From the NCBI GenBank assembly GCA_021787985.1, contig JAJYLG010000033.1:1-32879 (forward strand): a stretch of DNA of 32,879 nt. Reading direction: 5' to 3'. The notes under the pieces were generated by a model that worked only from the letters and a program-made list of their open reading frames with translations, made no database searches and was not told the origin of the DNA. Within the stretch, counting starts at the first letter, position 1; each line of letters begins with the position of its first letter. Below are positions 7,856 through 17,354 of this stretch, piece by piece. The translations under genes were made by a program, and so were the position numbers. The DNA comes from Chloroflexota bacterium. GTDB lineage: Bacteria > Chloroflexota > Dehalococcoidia > DSGV01.

Positions 7856-9742
7856 TCAGGCCGGTGGCGCGGGGGGCAGCGCGTCGGGCGAGCCGGCCTC
7901 ATGGCCGATGCGCCGCATCTCCTCTGGTAGCTTCGCCATGCGCTCGGCCAGGCCGGCGAGGTACGTTCGTTCGGGCGTCACCTTGACCCAGATGCGGCGC
8001 CGCGGGAAGTAGAAGGTCACCACCAGACCGAAGAGCAGCAGCCCCGTGGCCAGCCAGATGAAGTCGGCTCCCGGATCCTTGCGCACGATCAGCCCGGTGA
8101 AGTTCTTGCGGCCGACGAAGGTGTAGATCCGGTTGCCAACCTGTACCGATTGGCCGGCCTTGAGGCTGAGCGAGATCGGGTTGCCCTCGTTGTCCATGCA
8201 GCGGTCGACCGTGATCCCGTCCGGCCCGCTGGAGTAGCGGTCGGGCCCGCAGCGTTCGGCCAGCGTCTGCGCGGAGGCGGCCGCCGGGGCGGGGGGTGCG
8301 GCGCTGGGCTGCCCGTCCGCGGCGGTCGCGGCGGCGCCGTTGGCCGTGTTCGTGCCGCGGTCCGCTTGCGACGGCAGCCCGCTGGTCGTGCCGCCGCCCA
8401 TGTTGCGCATGTCGAGGAAGGGCTGGCCATCGACGCTCGTGCCGAGCTGCAGCATCGCCGCGCGCTCCATGCCCGGGACGTTCTGCCACACGCCGAGCGG
8501 GGCAGCCTTGAGTGAGATGAAGGTGAAGGTCCGTCCGTTGCCCGTCCCGCTCTGACCGGGCGCAAGCGTGAGCTGGAAGTCCGGGTCGCCGTGGGCCGGG
8601 TCGACGCCCTTGTGCAAGATGCCGGCCCGCCACTGGCCTTGCCCATCCTGGAAGAGGGTGAGGATGGTCTGGCCGGTCGGGTCGAGGACGGTTCCCCAGA
8701 AGTCGGTGCTGCCGGCCTGCACGGGTGCGAGCAGCAGGTAGTTGTCCCAGTACACCTGGCCGTCCGCCCCGGTGATGCGCAGCAGCGGCATCGGGGCGCC
8801 GTTCGCGGAGAGGTTGTGTGCCTCGTCGAAGATGACCCGGCCGGTGGTGGCGTCGCGGACCTGGAGATCTACGCCGTTGGCCGAGAACGCCGCCTGGTGG
8901 ACGCTCAGCCCGTCGCAAGAGAGCGGCGTGTTGACCGTGACGCGCCCGCGGCAGATCTCCGCGCCGTCCCGGTACAGCACAACGTCGCTGTGGAACGCGA
9001 TGATGTTGCCCTTGGCGTCGCGGCCCTCGTACGCGCCCAGGCTGCGCACGATGACCTGGTTGTCGGAGCGCACGGGAAACACCGGCGCGGTGCGCCCGTC
9101 GGCGATCTCCACCGTCTGGGAGAAGCCGAGCACCTTCGTCAGCACGGCGCCCGTCAGGAAGAGGATCAGCGAGAGGTGGGTAGCGAAGGTGCCGAGCTGC
9201 GTCCAACTGAAGCGATCGGCGTACAGGTAGGTGGCGCCGTCACGGACCTCGCGCGTGAGCTTATAGTGCCGCTTGCGCAGCGCGCGCTCGATGCGCGCCG
9301 GGTCGGCGGGCGTGCTGAACTCGGCGCGCTGGTGCGCCCGCGTGAAGTACGTCTCGGCGACCCGCTTCTGCGGCCGGCGGATGCTGCGCCAGATGCTCGG
9401 AAAGCGGTTGGCCGTGCAGATGGTCACCGCGAGGAGCACGAAGAGCACCAGGCCGTTGAACCAGTAGGAGTGAAAGACCTCGAACAGGCCGAGCCGGCGC
9501 ATTCCCCAGGTGAACGGACCGAACTTGCCCACCTGCGCCTGCGTCCAGGCGTCGAACGCGGCCGGCGAGGAGCGGATGTCGTCACTGACCTGTGGGATGA
9601 CCACGCCGAGCAGCGCGCCGAACGCGACGAATCCGATGAGCACGAGCGCGAAGCGGACGCTGGTCAGCAGCCGGTAGAGCGAGTAGAAGGGGTTGAAGCG
9701 CCCAAAGCGCGCTCCAGCGGCGGCACGGCCCAAGCTGGTCAT
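7856..9742 (-). CDS. resB: Cytochrome c biogenesis protein ResB (Ccs1-like)
   Basis: A 628-residue ResB-family protein. Membrane helices are seen at about 27-52, 93-113, 177-200 and 565-590, with a large extracytoplasmic domain between the third and fourth, as in System II cytochrome c maturation. Early conserved stretches are YRLLTSVRFALVLI and FHSYWFNGLVLFVLLA. A Pro/Ala-rich, probably disordered insert lies at about residues 455-500 and makes the protein longer than usual for ResB. Its start overlaps the stop of resA by four bases (ATGA), so both are made from one message. ResB works with ResC/CcsA to bring heme and apocytochrome together outside the membrane; ccsA is not in this window. 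Confidence 0.9.
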   Translation of the reverse strand: MTSLGRAAAGARFGRFNPFYSLYRLLTSVRFALVLIGFVAFGALLGVVIPQVSDDIRSSPAAFDAWTQAQVGKFGPFTWGMRRLGLFEVFHSYWFNGLVLFVLLAVTICTANRFPSIWRSIRRPQKRVAETYFTRAHQRAEFSTPADPARIERALRKRHYKLTREVRDGATYLYADRFSWTQLGTFATHLSLILFLTGAVLTKVLGFSQTVEIADGRTAPVFPVRSDNQVIVRSLGAYEGRDAKGNIIAFHSDVVLYRDGAEICRGRVTVNTPLSCDGLSVHQAAFSANGVDLQVRDATTGRVIFDEAHNLSANGAPMPLLRITGADGQVYWDNYLLLAPVQAGSTDFWGTVLDPTGQTILTLFQDGQGQWRAGILHKGVDPAHGDPDFQLTLAPGQSGTGNGRTFTFISLKAAPLGVWQNVPGMERAAMLQLGTSVDGQPFLDMRNMGGGTTSGLPSQADRGTNTANGAAATAADGQPSAAPPAPAAASAQTLAERCGPDRYSSGPDGITVDRCMDNEGNPISLSLKAGQSVQVGNRIYTFVGRKNFTGLIVRKDPGADFIWLATGLLLFGLVVTFYFPRRRIWVKVTPERTYLAGLAERMAKLPEEMRRIGHEAGSPDALPPAPPA

Positions 9743-10389
9743 TGCTGGAGCAGCGCCTGCAGCTTGGCCAGGACTTCGGCGCGGGTCAGCGGTCCGGGAT
9801 GGATTTCCCGTACCACGCCGCGGGAGTCCACCAGGTAGGTGGTGGGGATCTGCTGCGAGACGTGGTAGACCTTCGACACCTGGCCGGGGTCGATGACGAT
9901 GTCGTAGTCGATGCCGAACTCGCGCACGAAGCTGGCCACGTCCTGGCTCGGTTCCTGCAGGTCGACGCCGACAAAGCGGACGCCGGAGGCCTTGAGCTGA
10001 TCATAGGCCGAGATGAGGTCGGGGATCTCCTGGCGACAGGGTGGACACCAGGTCGCCCAGAAGTTGATCAGCACGGGGTGGCCCTGCAGGTCACTCAAGC
10101 GCACGGTCGTCCCGTCCAGCCGCCGCAGAACGAAGTCGGGCGCGGCCCGGCCGACCTCGGCCGCGGGAGGCTTGCCGGTCGCATCGCGGCTGGCAGGAAG
10201 CTGGACGATGCCGATGCCCCTCTCGACCGGGGGCGCGTGGCCGCGGTCGCGGAACTCGAAGAACCAGAGCCCGAGTACGATGCCCGCCAGGATCACGAGG
10301 GGCAGCAGCACCGAGCGGAAGGCGCCGGTCCATTCGCGTGGCCGCTGCGGCCGCTCGATCGGGTCGTCGGGTGCGGAGGTCACAGGCAT
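9739..10389 (-). CDS. resA: Membrane-anchored thiol-disulfide oxidoreductase (ResA/TlpA family)
   Basis: A 216-residue protein with one N-terminal membrane anchor (about residues 24-44), then an extracytoplasmic thioredoxin fold. The active site is WATWCPPCRQE with Cys115 and Cys118, the WCxxC of TlpA/ResA proteins. A conserved Pro precedes the last strands (SQQIPTTYLVDSRG). ResA reduces the disulfide of the CxxCH motif in apocytochrome c so that heme can be attached, and gene order with resB supports this role. ATG 10389 lacks a clear Shine-Dalgarno sequence but is about 40 bases downstream of the predicted transcription start. A cytochrome c domain that would need this pathway is encoded at 31288-32664. 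Confidence 0.88.
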   Translation of the reverse strand: MPVTSAPDDPIERPQRPREWTGAFRSVLLPLVILAGIVLGLWFFEFRDRGHAPPVERGIGIVQLPASRDATGKPPAAEVGRAAPDFVLRRLDGTTVRLSDLQGHPVLINFWATWCPPCRQEIPDLISAYDQLKASGVRFVGVDLQEPSQDVASFVREFGIDYDIVIDPGQVSKVYHVSQQIPTTYLVDSRGVVREIHPGPLTRAEVLAKLQALLQQ

Positions 10390-10463: not shown

Positions 10464-10624
10464 GCGCATGTGAACGCATTCGCAAAGTGCTCGACAGAAG
10501 ATCGGTGGGGCGCCCGACGTTCTGCGCAGATCGCACCGCCAGTCGGCGAGAATGGGGTTTCGCACTTCACGACGCGTTCATGTTCGCCCGCTAGCCTGCG
10601 ATCGCCCCGATGGAGGGGGCGACG

Positions 10625-12043
10625 GTGCGCATTCCGATTCTCGCTTCTGGTCGCGATCAGTACGGACGACCATTGGGCCGGGTCGCGTGCGGGCGCCCTC
10701 GCCGGCGCTTGAGCTGGCGGCGGCTCGGGCTGGCAGCGGCCGCGCTCGTGCTCCTGTTCGCAGGCGCCTACCAGTGGCGCGAGACGATCGTAGTGGGTGG
10801 CTCGGCGCTGAGCCGCCGCATCATCGGCGAGCAGAACACGATGCGGCTCGAGACGGCCTACTTCGGCGTGCTCGATCTGACCCACCGTGTCGAGTACCGG
10901 GTGTTTGGATCGGGTGGTGGCAACCCGGAGAGTGGCTCGGTACGGCGCAGGGTGGCGCTTCGACCTGCGCCCGTGCTGAGCGCGCGCTCGGCGGGCTCGC
11001 TGGCGACGGAGCGGCGGCGGGCGAGGGTCGCCCCGGCCGCGGTTCGTCCGCTCGGACCGCCCGCGCGGGTGCCGCCGCTGTACCCGCACGCGGCAGCCTC
11101 GGACGAGGGGGTATGGCAGCCGCTGCAGCTCGCTGGCCGCGGCGCCTATCTGGCGCAGCATCCGATCTACACTACCTTCGTGCGGCCGGACCCGTCGCGA
11201 CCCTACGCGACAGTGACCTTGGTGGCATTCGATAGTTCGGCGGTCAGGCTGCATCTCGTCGCCGGCACAAGCGAGCCCGGCTACGCCTACGGCGCGGCCG
11301 GCACGGGGCGCATCCCGCAATCGGTGGTCCGCAGCGGCGCTTTGCTGGCCGCGTTCAACGGCGGCTTCAAGTGGCAGGACGGCCGTTACGGCATGGTTGA
11401 GGACGGGCGCACGGTGGCGCCGCTGCAGCCGGGATTCGCCACGCTGGCGACGTACCGCGACGGCTCGATCCGTATCGGCACCTGGGGGACGGAGATCACC
11501 AGCTCGCCGTCGCTCGTCTCCTTGCGCCAGAACGCGCTGATGCTCATCGATCACGGGCAGATCTCACCCGAGATCAACCGCGGCGGGCACACCTGGGGCT
11601 TCGTCTGGTATACGAGCAGGAAGTTCTACACGACGCGCTCCGCCGTCGCCTTCCTGGCTGACGGGCGCTTCGTGTACGTGGCCGGCTACTCGGTCACGGC
11701 GAAGACCCTGGCCCTTGCGCTGAAGCAGGCCGGCGTTACCCGCGCGATGCAGCTCGACATCAACAGCCCCTACACGCAGATGGCGCTGTACGAGCTGCGA
11801 GGCGGCGTGCATGGCTTCGACCTGACCCGCTGGATGGCCCGCTGCCCCGACTACTTCCTGAGGACGCGGCAGCGCGACTTCGCCTACCTGACGGTCGGAA
11901 AGTGGGGCCGCCAGGCGGCGGCGGCGCGGCCGTCCGGCTCGCAGGGGCGCGGCGGGTCATCGCTCAGCGGCCCCGCCTCGGCGGTGTCGCCGCGCCCAGC
12001 CCCGCCGCGGCGAGCAGCGCCTCGCGCCGCACGAAGCCGATGA
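10625..12043 (+). CDS. Phosphodiester glycosidase family protein (NAGPA/DUF2233-like), membrane-anchored
   Basis: A 472-residue protein with a short cytoplasmic N-terminus, a hydrophobic anchor (LGLAAAALVLLFAGAYQW, about residues 36-56) and an extracytoplasmic domain. The domain keeps the family's marks: AAFNGGFKW, the GMVEDGR region, and QLDINSP near the C-terminal end. Relatives remove GlcNAc-phosphate caps or cleave related sugar phosphodiesters; the substrate here may be a cell-wall or surface polymer (inference). GTG 10625 is chosen because GGAGG lies eight bases upstream; the ATG at 10610 overlaps that site. The last about 55 residues are Arg/Pro/Ser-rich, and the final 80 bases overlap the end of the site-2 protease gene on the opposite strand, which may mean the original stop was lost. 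Confidence 0.8.
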   Translation: MRIPILASGRDQYGRPLGRVACGRPRRRLSWRRLGLAAAALVLLFAGAYQWRETIVVGGSALSRRIIGEQNTMRLETAYFGVLDLTHRVEYRVFGSGGGNPESGSVRRRVALRPAPVLSARSAGSLATERRRARVAPAAVRPLGPPARVPPLYPHAAASDEGVWQPLQLAGRGAYLAQHPIYTTFVRPDPSRPYATVTLVAFDSSAVRLHLVAGTSEPGYAYGAAGTGRIPQSVVRSGALLAAFNGGFKWQDGRYGMVEDGRTVAPLQPGFATLATYRDGSIRIGTWGTEITSSPSLVSLRQNALMLIDHGQISPEINRGGHTWGFVWYTSRKFYTTRSAVAFLADGRFVYVAGYSVTAKTLALALKQAGVTRAMQLDINSPYTQMALYELRGGVHGFDLTRWMARCPDYFLRTRQRDFAYLTVGKWGRQAAAARPSGSQGRGGSSLSGPASAVSPRPAPPRRAAPRAARSR

Positions 12044-13112
12044 CGACCCCGTTTTCGACGACCGCGCCGACGCTGGTCTCGCGCGTCTCCATCTCCTGCA
12101 GCGCGGTGAACGCGTCGGTCTGGGGCGAGAAGGGGGCGATGCGTGAGGCAGGGAGTGCCAGATCGCCCACGCGCGTGGCCATCCGCCGGTCGGGCGGCAC
12201 GGAGCGCAACATGTGCTCGCTTACCAGTCCGACGAACCGGGCGTCCTGGCCCACCGCATGGACGCGCGAGTCGTCCGGCGGGTACGCTTCGGCGAGCGCG
12301 GCGGCGACCGTGTCGTCGACGGCGAGCTCCGGCGGTCCGCTTTGCATCACGTCGCGAAGCGGGAGCTTGTTCAGCGCCTGCTGCACGCGGAGCTGAAGAC
12401 CGCTGCTGCGCGCCGCGCCATCCAGGAAGAGGCCGATGATGATCAGCCACAACCCCTCGAAGGGGTCGAACGTGCCGAAGAAAGAGACCCGCAGCAGCAT
12501 CAACGCGCCGACCGCCATCAGCACGTAGGCGAATCCGCGGCCCATGCTGATGGCGATGCGGGTCGAGCGGTAGTAGTTGCCCGTGATGCCCCACAGCGCC
12601 GAGCGCAGCACGCGCCCGCCGTCCATGGGGAACGCGGGCGCCATGTTGAAGATCCCGACGCCCAGGTTGATCAGCCACAGCCACTGCCACATCAGCGAGA
12701 CAGGTGTATCAGCTCGCCCGCCGGCCTGCCACAGGCCGAGGAAGAAGCCCGAGAGCAGGATGCTGGTCGCCGGTCCAGCCGCGGCCATCACGAGCTCTTG
12801 CCAGCTTCGGCTCGCTTCCTTCGTGATCTGCGCGATGCCGCCGAAGATGAACAGCGTGATCGAGCGGACCGGGATGCCGAAGAGCCGCGCGATCAGGCTG
12901 TGGGCGACCTCGTGGAGGAGGATGGAGGCGAAGAAGATCAAGCCGGTGGTCAAGGCCAGCAGCCATAGCACCCAGCGCGCGTGGCTGGGAAAGGCCTGAG
13001 GGAACACGCCGGTGGCCAGAAGCCCGACGACGAACGCGAGCGCGAGGAACCAGGAGAAGTTGATACCGATGGGGATGCCGAAGACGGTAGCCAGTCGGAA
13101 GTTCTGTCTCAT
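11964..13112 (-). CDS. Site-2 protease family intramembrane metalloprotease (M50) with CBS pair
   Basis: A 382-residue polytopic membrane protease. HEVAH (residues 67-71) lies in a membrane helix and supplies two zinc ligands and the catalytic Glu. NMAPAFPMDGGRVLRS (156-171) supplies the third ligand Asp164 within the family's NxxPxxPxDGG motif. Six or so membrane helices cover residues 1-230. The remainder (about 245-370) reads as a CBS-domain pair with LRDVMQSGPPELAVDDTV and an inhibitory/regulatory ligand site expected. Proteases of this group cut membrane-embedded substrates such as anti-sigma factors; the target is not evident. AGAGGA precedes ATG 13112. The adjacent upstream gene is an inactive-looking paralogue. 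The gene overlaps the convergent DUF2233-type gene by 80 bases. Confidence 0.92.
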   Translation of the reverse strand: MRQNFRLATVFGIPIGINFSWFLALAFVVGLLATGVFPQAFPSHARWVLWLLALTTGLIFFASILLHEVAHSLIARLFGIPVRSITLFIFGGIAQITKEASRSWQELVMAAAGPATSILLSGFFLGLWQAGGRADTPVSLMWQWLWLINLGVGIFNMAPAFPMDGGRVLRSALWGITGNYYRSTRIAISMGRGFAYVLMAVGALMLLRVSFFGTFDPFEGLWLIIIGLFLDGAARSSGLQLRVQQALNKLPLRDVMQSGPPELAVDDTVAAALAEAYPPDDSRVHAVGQDARFVGLVSEHMLRSVPPDRRMATRVGDLALPASRIAPFSPQTDAFTALQEMETRETSVGAVVENGVVIGFVRREALLAAAGLGAATPPRRGR

Positions 13113-13135
13113 CGTGTCCTCTTGCGTTCAGTATC

Positions 13136-13141
13136 AGTATA
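13136..13141 (-). promoter_or_regulatory. -10 box for the site-2 protease gene
   Basis: TATACT on the minus strand (5 of 6 matches), 24 bases before the ATG at 13112, inside a direct repeat ATACTGATACTG. No -35 box is recognisable. Confidence 0.35.
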
Positions 13142-13191
13142 TGGGCCGGCGCGGATCGGCCGCCGACAGGTGAACGCCGGGGACCGCTACG

Positions 13192-13965
13192 CTACGCAGC
13201 GAGGCGGGAGCGGTGGGCGTGCTCGATCGACGCTGGCCGGCCCGCGGTGCGCGCGCCGTGCAGGCCGGCAAGCATCAGCCAGGGCGCGGCCAGCGGGTGG
13301 ATGAACGCGGCGAAGGAGAGGTCTGGCGAGCGCGTCAACGTGTAGGCGATGACGCTGCAGGAGAACGCCAGCAGCGCCAGCGAGGTCATGCGCGCGGTGG
13401 CGGCGACCAGCCGATCCGCGGTGGGCCCCACGCCCAGTAGTCGCATGGCGACGGCATGGAGCAGGCCCGCGCCCTCGAACGGCGGCACGGGCAGCATTCC
13501 GACGGCCGCCAGCCCTTCGAGCACGAGGGCGGACCAGAGCAGCGCCGCCGACAGGGGGGTCTCGGCCCGGCCGCTCGCCGCCCAGGCTGCCAGCAAGACG
13601 CCGCCCAGCGCGCCCTCGACCAGCGAGCCGGACGCGTGGAGCAGCACGCGGCAGCGCGTGCGCCGCGGCTCTCCCGCGAGCTGCGTCAGTCCGCCGAGAA
13701 CGTGCAGCACGAGGTCGCGGGCCGACACGCCGCAGCGGCGCGCCAGGGCGACCCGCGCCAGCGCGCCGGCGAGCACGCCGAGCTGCACCAGGACCGCGCA
13801 GAAGGCGGCCACGGTCCAGAGCGCCCAGCGTTCGTGCCGCGGGAACGCGGGCTGGAAGAGGGTAAGGGCCAGGACGGCCGTCATCGTGAGGGCGAGAACG
13901 CACCACCCGCCGGTGATACGGACCGAGATGCCGCGGACCGTTGCCAGGGTGATGGGGCGGTTCAC
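13192..13965 (-). CDS. Catalytically degenerate paralogue of the site-2 protease (pseudoprotease)
   Basis: A 257-residue membrane protein that aligns without a gap to the first about 170 residues of the intact protease next to it: ATVRGISVRITGGW against ATVFGIPIGINFSW, LFQPAFPRHERWALW against VFPQAFPSHARWVLW, and GRAETPLSAALLW against GRADTPVSLMWQW. At the same positions HEVAH is replaced by GALAR (67-71) and the third-ligand motif NMAPAFPMDGG by GMLPVPPFEGA, so Asp164 becomes Glu. All zinc ligands are thus lost while the membrane fold is kept. It has no CBS domains. GTG 13965 is supported by GAGGAGGT upstream. It may bind the same substrates or dimerise with the active enzyme (inference), as inactive rhomboid relatives do. 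The open frame and good ribosome site argue against a decaying pseudogene. Confidence 0.8.
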   Translation of the reverse strand: MNRPITLATVRGISVRITGGWCVLALTMTAVLALTLFQPAFPRHERWALWTVAAFCAVLVQLGVLAGALARVALARRCGVSARDLVLHVLGGLTQLAGEPRRTRCRVLLHASGSLVEGALGGVLLAAWAASGRAETPLSAALLWSALVLEGLAAVGMLPVPPFEGAGLLHAVAMRLLGVGPTADRLVAATARMTSLALLAFSCSVIAYTLTRSPDLSFAAFIHPLAAPWLMLAGLHGARTAGRPASIEHAHRSRLAA

Positions 13966-14082
13966 CGCACCTCCTCTCAGGGACTATCGGCAGCGGGTGA
14001 GGCGGGCGTCAGGGGAAGGCGAAGCATGCCGACTGAACGGGGAAACGGCGAAGTCACGAAGGCGGGGCGAAGGCGGGGGCAG

Positions 14083-14145: not shown

Positions 14146-14709
14146 TCACCGTTCGCCCCGCGGCCTGCGCTTTGCCTTTGCACTGGGCACGCCGTGGGGC
14201 TCCAGGTAGTCGTCCTCGCGGCGCAGGTGGTTCGAGGCCGCGCAGGCGCGGACGGCGCGGGCGATGCGCGTGCTGCGGCCGACGAGGTCGCCATCGCGGC
14301 CGCTGCGGACGTGCGCCAGGCAGAGCGCCAACGGGCCCGGCGACAGCGGATCGTCGGCGGCGCGGTTGAGCAGGTCTTCGAGCAAGCGGGCGTGGCACTG
14401 GGGCTCGTCGGCCGGGCAGAGGCAGAGCAGGGTCAGCGGTTTGCGCTCGAGGCGGACCGCGATGGAGGCCAGGTAGTCGGCTCGCTCCGCCACCTCCGTG
14501 AGAAAGCGGGTCGCGTACTCGTCCCAGCCGAGCTCGCCGTAGTGGTACTCGCGCAGCAGGTCGTAGGAAGGCGCCAGCTCGGGAAGGAACTGGTCGATGG
14601 CGAGCTGCTGCCAAGTCCGGCCGCGCGGCCAGAGGCGCGAGACGAGCAGCCTCCAGCCGTCGTCGGGAGCCGGCGGATCGTGGACGCACCGGACGCGCAG
14701 GTACGGCAT
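14146..14709 (-). CDS. DUF488 family protein (YeaO-like)
   Basis: A 187-residue protein beginning MPYLRVRCVHDPP with the family signature DDGWRLLVSRLWPRG (about residues 16-30). A typical YeaO/DUF488 core follows: LPELAPSYDLLREYHYG, YATRFLTEV, and a strand PLTLLCLCPADEPQCHARLL like the usual LLYGAKD-x-x-xNHA-x-xL, with the Cys-x-Ala-x-x-L variation. The biochemical role of the family is not established. The C-terminal about 60 residues are not part of the usual domain and end in a basic tail. No Shine-Dalgarno sequence precedes ATG 14709; TATACT lies nine bases upstream, so the message may be leaderless. Confidence 0.8.
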   Translation of the reverse strand: MPYLRVRCVHDPPAPDDGWRLLVSRLWPRGRTWQQLAIDQFLPELAPSYDLLREYHYGELGWDEYATRFLTEVAERADYLASIAVRLERKPLTLLCLCPADEPQCHARLLEDLLNRAADDPLSPGPLALCLAHVRSGRDGDLVGRSTRIARAVRACAASNHLRREDDYLEPHGVPSAKAKRRPRGER

Positions 14710-14801: not shown

Positions 14802-14819
14802 ACTATGGAGGGCCTTTCG

Positions 14820-15257
14820 GTGCGGGTCTCGGCCAAGACCGACTACGGCGTCCGGGCGCTCATCGAGCTGGCGCACCACTCCGGGCAGGGCCCGCTGCAG
14901 GCGTGCGAGATCGCCCAGCGGCAGCGCATCCCCGAGCCATACCTCGACCAGTTGCTCACCACGCTGCGGCGGGCGGGCATCGTGCGCAGCCAGCGCGGGC
15001 CGCAAGGCGGGCACAACCTGGCGCGTGACGCGGCCGAGATCCGTCTGACCGAGGTCGTGGAAGCGCTCGAGGGCACGATCTCGCCCATCTCCTGCCTGGA
15101 TGAGGGCAGCGAGTGCTCGCTGGGTGGTGGCTGCGCGCAGCGCGAGGTGTGGGAGCGCGTTCGGCGCGCCACCTACGAGATCCTGGAGAACGTGACGATC
15201 GCGCAACTGGCGGCGCGCGAGCGCGAGCTGACGGGCGCCGCGCGCTATGTCATCTGA
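14820..15257 (+). CDS. Rrf2 family transcriptional regulator, probably Fe-S cluster sensing
   Basis: A 145-residue regulator. The N-terminal winged helix reads VRVSAKTDYGVRALIELA, then IPEPYLDQLLTTLRRAGIV (recognition helix) and RGPQGGHNLAR (wing), all classic for Rrf2/IscR/CymR proteins. Three cysteines at 92, 99 and 105 match closely the cluster-binding cysteines of IscR (92, 98, 104), so a [2Fe-2S] cofactor is likely. GTG 14820 is preferred because GGAGGG lies eight bases upstream; the ATG at 14805 overlaps this ribosome site. It leads the cysteine operon with 11 bases before cysK. A regulator combining Fe-S sensing with cysteine supply is logical because cysteine is the sulfur source for clusters (inference). 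Confidence 0.9.
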   Translation: MRVSAKTDYGVRALIELAHHSGQGPLQACEIAQRQRIPEPYLDQLLTTLRRAGIVRSQRGPQGGHNLARDAAEIRLTEVVEALEGTISPISCLDEGSECSLGGGCAQREVWERVRRATYEILENVTIAQLAARERELTGAARYVI

Positions 15258-15268
15258 GGAGGTGCGCG

Positions 15269-16216
15269 GTGCGCGCTGACCTGGCCGTCCGGCGTGGAGC
15301 GCTGCTGGTCGATTCCGTCCTGGAGCTGGTGGGCGGCACGCCGCTGGTGCGGTTGCACCGGGTGGTGCCATCGGGCAGTGCCGAGGTGCTGGGCAAGCTG
15401 GAGTCGCTCAACCCGGCGGGCTCCGTCAAGGATCGGATCGCCATCGCCATGGTCGAGCAGGCCGAAGTGGAGGGCCGGTTGCGGCCAGGCGCCACGATCG
15501 TCGAGCCGACGAGCGGCAACACCGGCGTGGGGCTGGCAATGGTCTGCGCGGTGCGGGGCTACCGGCTGATTCTGACGATGCCCGAGGACATGAGCATCGA
15601 GCGCCGGCGCCTGCTGCAACGATTCGGCGCCGAGCTGCGACTGACGCCCGCGATCGAGGGGATGACCGGCGCGGTACACGCCGCGGAGGAGCTGCTGGCC
15701 GATCACCCCGACTACTTCATGCCGCAGCAGTTCGTGAACGCGGCGAACCCGGAGATCCACCGGCAAACCACGGCGCAGGAGATCCTGGAGGCGAGCGGGG
15801 GGCGCGTCGATGCCTTCGTCGCCGGAGTAGGGACCGGCGGCACGATCACGGGTGTGGGCGAGGTGCTGCGCGAGCAGAACCCGGACGTGCTGGTGGTCGC
15901 GGTGGAGCCGTCCCGGTCGCAGGTGCTGCGCGGCGGCCGGGCCGGGCTGCACGGCATCCAGGGGATCGGCGCGAGCTTCATCCCGGGCGTGCTCAATCGT
16001 GACGTGTACGATGAGATCGTCGCCGTCGACGACGAAGACGCGTACGCGATGACGCGCCGGCTCACGCGCGAGGAGGGGCTGCTCGTCGGGATCTCCTCGG
16101 GCGCCAACGTCGCGGCGAGTGTGCGCGTGGCGAAGCGGCTCGGCGAGGGCAAGCGAGTCGTGACCATGCTGTGCGACACCGGCGAGCGATACCTGAGCGT
16201 GAACCTTGAGCACTAG
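15269..16216 (+). CDS. cysK: Cysteine synthase, O-acetylserine sulfhydrylase type
   Basis: A 315-residue PLP enzyme of fold type II. The PLP lysine is Lys54 in NPAGSVKDR; TSGNTG (81-86) binds the substrate carboxylate and GTGGT (188-192) the PLP phosphate. The segment GLHGIQGIGASFIPG matches the PHKIQGIGAGF region of CysK-type enzymes using O-acetylserine and sulfide. This separates it from the second synthase of the operon at 17760. GTG 15269 lies just after GAGGAGGTG, which overlaps the stop of the Rrf2 gene, so translation is probably coupled. It makes L-cysteine in the cytoplasm. A role as cystathionine beta-synthase is less likely because there are no CBS domains. Confidence 0.93.
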   Translation: MRADLAVRRGALLVDSVLELVGGTPLVRLHRVVPSGSAEVLGKLESLNPAGSVKDRIAIAMVEQAEVEGRLRPGATIVEPTSGNTGVGLAMVCAVRGYRLILTMPEDMSIERRRLLQRFGAELRLTPAIEGMTGAVHAAEELLADHPDYFMPQQFVNAANPEIHRQTTAQEILEASGGRVDAFVAGVGTGGTITGVGEVLREQNPDVLVVAVEPSRSQVLRGGRAGLHGIQGIGASFIPGVLNRDVYDEIVAVDDEDAYAMTRRLTREEGLLVGISSGANVAASVRVAKRLGEGKRVVTMLCDTGERYLSVNLEH

Positions 16217-16256
16217 GAGCAGGGGACGGGAGACGCCCGCCCCAAGGAGGACCGAC

Positions 16257-17354
16257 GTGTCTGTGCGCGTCTACATCCCGACGCCGTTTCGCCGCATGGT
16301 GGGGAACCGAGTGTACGTGGAAGCGCAGGGCCACACCGTGGACGAGGTGCTGGCAGACCTGGACCATCAGTTTCCCGGGTTCGCCCAACTCGTCTATGAC
16401 GATCGGCGGCGCATTCCGGCGCACATCAACGTCTACCTGAACAACAAGGAGATCCACAGCTTGGATGGGCCGGGAACGCAGGTACAGGACGGCGACGAGG
16501 TGGCGGTGATCCCGGCGATCGCCGGGGGCGACGGCCGCGTCATGAACCCCGACCAGGTGATGCGCTACTCGCGGCACATCATCATGCCGCAGGTCGGCCC
16601 GGTGGGCCAGCGCAAGCTGCTCGATGCCAAGGTCCTCGTGATCGGCGCCGGCGGCCTGGGCGGCCCGGTGGCGATCTACCTGGCGATGGCCGGCGTGGGC
16701 ACCATCGGCATCGTCGACTTCGACGTGGTCGACCTCTCCAACCTCCAGCGTCAGGTGCTGCACACCACGGAAGACGTCGGGCGGCCGAAGGTCGCGTCGG
16801 CGAAGGAGAAGCTGCAGGCGTACAACCCCGACGTGCGTGTGGTCGTGCACGAGGAGCCGATCACCAGCGCGAACGCGATGGAGATCATCCCCCAGTACGA
16901 CGTCGTCGTGAACGGCGCGGACAACTTCGCCACCCGCTACCTCGTGAACGACGCCTGCTACCTGCACGGCAAGACGTTGGTGGACGGTTCCATCCTGCTG
17001 TTCGACGGCCAGGCCACGGTCTACGTGCCGGGGCACGGCTGCTACCGCTGCCTGTTCCCCGAGCCGCCGCCGCCGGGCCTGGTGCCGAGCTGCGCCGAGG
17101 CGGGGGTGCTCGGGTCGATGACCGGCATCATCGGTGCCATCCAGGCGACGGAGACGCTCAAGCAGATCCTGGGGATCGGCGAGTCGCTGGTCGGACGGTT
17201 GCTGATCGTCGACGCGCTGACCATGGAGTTCCGGGTGATGAAAACGCGGCGCAACCCCAAGTGCCCGCTGTGCGGCGACCACCCGACGATCCACGAGCTG
17301 ATCGATTACGAGGAGTTCTGCGGCGCGCCCTTCCCGCACGCGCCGGGAGACTAA
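16257..17354 (+). CDS. Ubiquitin-like (MoaD/ThiS) domain fused to E1-like adenylyltransferase (MoeB/ThiF)
   Basis: A 365-residue fusion. Residues 1-91 are a ubiquitin-like sulfur-carrier domain ending VIPAIAGG; from about 97 an E1-like domain begins MRYSRHIIMPQVG. The E1 part has the ATP loop GAGGLGG (130-136), DFDVVDLSNLQRQ (acidic and Arg residues for adenylation), PSCAEAGVLG, and four zinc cysteines in CYRC (262, 265) and CPLC (336, 339). Such enzymes activate the C-terminal Gly of a carrier protein by adenylation before sulfur transfer. Here the carrier's GG (90-91) is followed directly by DGRV and the E1 domain, so it cannot be activated unless it is cut; it may instead be structural. 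AAGGAGG six bases before GTG 16257 fixes the start. Confidence 0.9.
   Translation: MSVRVYIPTPFRRMVGNRVYVEAQGHTVDEVLADLDHQFPGFAQLVYDDRRRIPAHINVYLNNKEIHSLDGPGTQVQDGDEVAVIPAIAGGDGRVMNPDQVMRYSRHIIMPQVGPVGQRKLLDAKVLVIGAGGLGGPVAIYLAMAGVGTIGIVDFDVVDLSNLQRQVLHTTEDVGRPKVASAKEKLQAYNPDVRVVVHEEPITSANAMEIIPQYDVVVNGADNFATRYLVNDACYLHGKTLVDGSILLFDGQATVYVPGHGCYRCLFPEPPPPGLVPSCAEAGVLGSMTGIIGAIQATETLKQILGIGESLVGRLLIVDALTMEFRVMKTRRNPKCPLCGDHPTIHELIDYEEFCGAPFPHAPGD

Follow-up and report, generated by a model that had tools for sequence, protein, structure and literature searches.

Directly upstream of an active-type site-2 protease (S2P), and in tandem with it on the same strand, the window (the whole 32,879-nucleotide stretch of DNA analysed here) carries an S2P paralogue, P0001, whose catalytic site has been lost (Table 1). 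That P0001 is an intact, translated and non-catalytic paralogue with an S2P fold is well supported, because its codon composition, its freedom from stops and indels, the conservation of its loops where synonymous sites are saturated, and its fold all point the same way. We assign a probability of about one half to the reading that P0001 is a genuine pseudoprotease, selected as the non-catalytic partner of the S2P-CBS enzyme (P0002) encoded 79 bp downstream.

Table 1. Positions of the paired S2P genes, their signals and the segments discussed in the text.
Feature	Coordinates	Strand	Details
Active-type site-2 protease with CBS domain (P0002)	11964..13112	minus	382 aa; HEVAH and PMDGGR intact
79-bp gap separating the two co-directional genes	13113..13191	minus	AGAGG precedes the active-gene ATG
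Inactive S2P-fold paralogue (P0001)	13192..13965	minus	257 aa; GTG start, TAG stop
Former xDGG codons, residues 163-166 = FEGA	13468..13479	minus	sequence
TM3-TM4 loop, residues 128-139, predicted extracytoplasmic	13549..13584	minus	8/12 identical to active twin
Former HExxH codons, residues 67-71 = GALAR	13753..13767	minus	sequence
Loop 1, residues 37-53, predicted extracytoplasmic	13807..13857	minus	10/17 identical to active twin
AGGAGG Shine-Dalgarno-like sequence, 4 nt ahead of the inactive-gene GTG	13970..13975	minus	sequence

The twin proteins share 30% identity over 247 aa by BLASTP (97.8 bits, E 5e-28), and their resemblance is therefore not due to chance. They align without gaps over columns 1-200 from the start codon (MAFFT), or over residues 7-202 (BLASTP); the sequence-only reading had described a gap-free alignment of 170 residues, which is correct and in fact an underestimate, as the first gap falls only past residue 200. 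An HMM of active S2Ps matches P0001 at E 5.7e-31, establishing homology in the S2P transmembrane (TM) core, and the nearest relatives identified are S2P-CBS enzymes of bacteria. Pfam, which assigns PF02163 (4.8e-22) and one CBS domain to P0002, does not recognise P0001 as M50, and NCBIfam returns only a sub-threshold match to RseP. The AlphaFold2 model of P0001 is a confident S2P fold (pLDDT 87.5, pTM 0.81), obtained with an input alignment of 14 rows, comprising the window proteins and S2Ps from IMG/VR contigs, which as a set favours this fold; an earlier fold from a two-row alignment (pLDDT 52) was not used. When the model was compared with the PDB by Foldseek, mjS2P (3b4r; E 7e-8, TM 0.62/0.71) and SpoIVFB (8vjl, 8vjm) were the only confident matches. 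The model keeps the substrate-gripping beta-strands (E5-10, E13-17, E82-88 and E91-96), and G91, G92 and E99 are conserved. As a side observation, IMG/VR contigs (L143-L160), several of them longer than 100 kb, bear S2P genes whose motifs are intact in nearly all cases.

Relative to its active twin, P0001 carries H67G, E68A, H71R and D164E, which together alter the catalytic Glu and each of the three zinc ligands; D164E is a conservative change. The earlier claims that HEVAH has become GALAR and MDGG has become FEGA, with every zinc ligand replaced, and that the reading frame and ribosome site are nonetheless intact, are both borne out: the alignment supports the former, and for the latter we find no stop and a perfect AGGAGG. 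Two asparagines of TM4 that are conserved in the family are also gone (N149L, N156G). Altogether, the positions which are invariant in 125 active relatives and changed in P0001 are H67, E68, H71, N149, N156, D164, G166 and R167, while G12, W21, G91, G92, G113, P159, P162, G165, W222 and G227 are retained; at 60 family-conserved positions the tally is 21 kept and 39 lost. P0001 thus lacks both the HExxH motif and the DG motif with its zinc-binding Asp that characterise active M50 peptidases. It also comprises the TM domain alone, with no CBS domain detected by Pfam and the protein ending at residue 257, and so falls outside S2P group III (the CBS type), whereas its twin has the C-terminal CBS domain of that group. 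P0001 contains five cysteines and the active twin none; at four of these positions no active relative has Cys, and a redox or metal role for them is possible.

The distribution of identity between the twins reverses the family norm, in which catalytic and membrane segments are best conserved, and loops least. Identity reaches 0.59 in loop 1 and 0.67 in the TM3-TM4 loop, compared with 0.11 to 0.25 across membrane helices; both loops are predicted to lie outside the cytoplasm, a placement deduced from the S2P model, which has six helices, and from the CBS domain being cytosolic. Comparison of the active protein with its relatives gives 0.51-0.53 in catalytic segments, 0.27 in loop 1 and 0.21 in the TM3-TM4 loop. 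Over both loops, for which limits were chosen after inspecting the alignment, 18 of 29 residues are identical between the twins, against 40 of 170 elsewhere (Fisher 8e-5). The observed count is not reached by shifting the loop labels circularly, and sliding windows of 13 residues score best at these same two sites. Loop-minus-rest identity is +0.23 for the window pair, calculated on the less favourable family alignment, against a mean of -0.24 and a maximum of +0.06 among 8,001 pairs of relatives. Within the loops, the codons of the twins match at 79% of first and second positions and at 41% of third positions, the random expectation for the latter being 42.5%. Third positions at this level indicate that the loops are old, that their synonymous sites are saturated, and that their amino acids have been kept by selection; recent gene conversion of the loops is ruled out on the same grounds.

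Under the partnership reading, the twins would share one membrane topology and almost identical outward loops, and may therefore bind one another, or both bind a single extracytoplasmic partner. In either case the pseudoprotease might regulate the active enzyme, most probably by restricting substrate access, or by keeping it inactive until a signal arrives from outside. More specifically, and only tentatively, we propose that the dedicated regulator of this enzyme is its own dead tandem paralogue, the two forming a mixed complex with a shared extracytoplasmic surface, in which an outside signal would be read by both and the dead member would gate the live one. We infer co-transcription of the pair, physical partnership of the products, and inhibition, rather than stabilisation, as the direction of the effect. 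No terminator or promoter match was found in the 79-bp gap (13113..13191).

A DUF488-N3 protein (active subclade best, PF22751) is encoded at 14146-14709 on the minus strand; its gene lies 180 bp upstream of the one for P0001 and could share a transcript with it. An ORF with a NAGPA phosphodiester glycosidase domain (10610-12043, plus strand) converges on the active S2P gene and overlaps its 3' end by 80 bp. Redox and sulfur genes surround the pair (7856-10389, minus strand; 14805-17354, plus strand), including those for ResB-like and thioredoxin-like proteins, an Rrf2 regulator, a PLP-dependent (cysteine synthase-like) enzyme, and a ThiF/ThiS fusion.

Alternatively, P0001 might act independently of its neighbour as a client adaptor, with other membrane proteins bound, stabilised or moved by means of the inherited gripping fold, in the manner of iRhoms, Derlins and EGY3. 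The retained beta-strands and conserved G91, G92 and E99 are consistent with such a role, as is the finding that EGY3, without acting as a protease, stabilises other proteins of the chloroplast (PMC10978774, PMC9355673). However, an independent adaptor would leave unexplained both the tandem position and the concentration of twin identity in the outer loops, and we regard it as rather unlikely.

It must also be weighed whether P0001 is a slowly decaying duplicate that has no function at present and is under relaxed selection. The branch leading to P0001 is very long, at ~4 changes per site against 0.5 for the active twin (approximately eight times longer), its composition has moved to GC-rich codons with attendant amino-acid drift (GARP 0.41, FYMINK 0.08), and most conserved columns have been lost; together these features are compatible with weak constraint over much of the protein. 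The failure to find an orthologue in samples of the class and phylum is in keeping with decay, and the open frame is by itself weak evidence against it, because at 70% GC two antisense frames here, of 286 and 422 codons, are open as well. Hydropathy, set against random codons, gives no information either way (z 0.9). Against decay, GC at codon positions 1, 2 and 3 (0.752, 0.574 and 0.926) is as sharply partitioned as in live genes of the window; intergenic GC on either side is 0.658 and 0.683, and GC3 tested against 0.67 gives a binomial p of 6e-23. Neutral decay, simulated from the active sequence down to 29% identity with assumed indel rates, yields a mean of 3.75 stops (probability of no stop, 0.01), a GC3 no higher than 0.83 and, with indels set low at 2% of substitutions, at least 8 indels, whereas the real gene shows neither stop nor indel along 200 codons. 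On these grounds a plain decaying gene was judged unlikely, and given also a good ribosome site, and loops conserved at the protein level while third positions are randomised, we consider slow decay improbable. The sequence-only reading had looked to absence from close relatives combined with neutral evolution as the sign of ongoing decay, and neutrality is not what we observe; its proposal of a candidate intramembrane pseudoprotease stands, on the strength of codon GC, the lack of stops and indels, the loops and the predicted fold. P0001 is thus a pseudoprotease in the general sense of a protease homologue that is devoid of catalytic residues and maintained as a protein.

No orthologue of the inactive protein emerged from genomes outside its own order: the searches covered two overlapping sets from the class (294, then 393 genomes), 400 genomes from the phylum and 177 from a second class, and their S2P hits were of paralogue-level similarity. 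Two contig scans with the inactive and active proteins as queries found no relatives, and a plasmid search found nothing. A sister relation between P0001 and P0002 is neither rejected nor proven (p-AU 0.44). Among ~125 S2P genes read, none of the others had a motif-less S2P-like ORF within ~1.5 kb, and a single inactive S2P was identified besides P0001: L014 (G276:C7, 1495-2643), from the same class and the sole match in its genome, in which HALAH and FPLAGG reflect loss of the catalytic Glu and the zinc Asp. L014 retains its CBS domain and 49 of 60 conserved positions, and is nested in a clade of active enzymes, which indicates an origin separate from that of P0001. Its loop conservation is ordinary, and no active S2P was found in the surrounding 15 kb. 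Other candidate parallels were rejected: one apparent inactive S2P (L121) belongs to an active S2P that a run of N interrupts, another (L116) is an unrelated CBS-bearing protein adjoining an active S2P, and in the tandem S2P genes of family f14 (L105, L122, L140) both copies are active types. In these f14 genomes a third gene, of 270-284 codons, is flanked by the two active-type S2P-CBS genes.

P0001 could conceivably serve as a substrate decoy, binding the membrane substrates of the active enzyme and shielding them from cleavage, for which the same fold and a retained beta-strand frame (in the model) would equip it. Yet P0001 is missing the CBS domain together with most of the linker between domains, and in SpoIVFB this linker is a main soluble contact with substrate (PMC11486902). 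Moreover, the cytosolic and membrane face that would meet substrate is the least conserved part of P0001, and there seems little chance that it is a decoy. Least persuasive is a relocated active or binding site, in which the cavity would be rebuilt with polar residues for another ligand or metal, or zinc replaced by an R71-E164 salt bridge: R71, H88, H110, E117, E150, E164, H170 and D184 are absent or nearly so (at most 0.01) at their respective positions among active relatives, and Arg71 and Glu164 should, from known S2P chemistry, be near enough to pair, since H71 and D164 ligate the same zinc in active S2Ps, but no known metal motif is present, drift can also substitute former catalytic columns, and we think such a site very improbable.

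Intramembrane pseudoproteases are known mainly from eukaryotes, as exemplified by iRhoms, Derlins and EGY3, and our literature search turned up no S2P pseudoprotease from a bacterium. If P0001 is indeed the partner of P0002, an adjacent live and dead pair of bacterial S2Ps would offer a simple system for S2P gating, and for the change from protease to regulator, and the inverted conservation pattern suggests that tests should centre on the outer loops. The sequence-only reading likened P0001 to iRhoms, which are catalytically dead relatives of intramembrane proteases that regulate proteolysis (PMC3149277, PMC6451368). The comparison is apt as a concept, but not as a matter of family, as the homology and fold of P0001 are those of M50 S2Ps, whereas iRhoms are eukaryotic members of the rhomboid superfamily (serine-type), with another fold and extra domains. 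Closer analogues are found in SpoIVFB with BofA and SpoIVFA, and in EGY3. SpoIVFB is a group III S2P-CBS enzyme, as P0002 is, and is under the control of membrane partners (PMC9042235, PMC11486902); BofA occupies its cleft, SpoIVFA is required, and the enzyme is thereby blocked (PMC9042235). Among solved structures, mjS2P and SpoIVFB resemble P0001 best, and the supposed partner here differs in being itself an S2P paralogue. BofA and SpoIVFA are not known to be S2P homologues. EGY3 of Arabidopsis belongs to the same protease family as P0001 and has likewise lost the HExxH zinc motif from an intact gene, with active relatives in the same organism; it was described in 2022 as the only pseudoenzyme homologous to the family, found only in plants (PMC9355673). 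EGY3 is a chloroplast protein, conserved across plants and not a tandem twin, whereas P0001 is bacterial, is without the CBS domain of its twin, and adjoins an active paralogue; among these systems, EGY3 is nonetheless the nearest to P0001 in both family and function.
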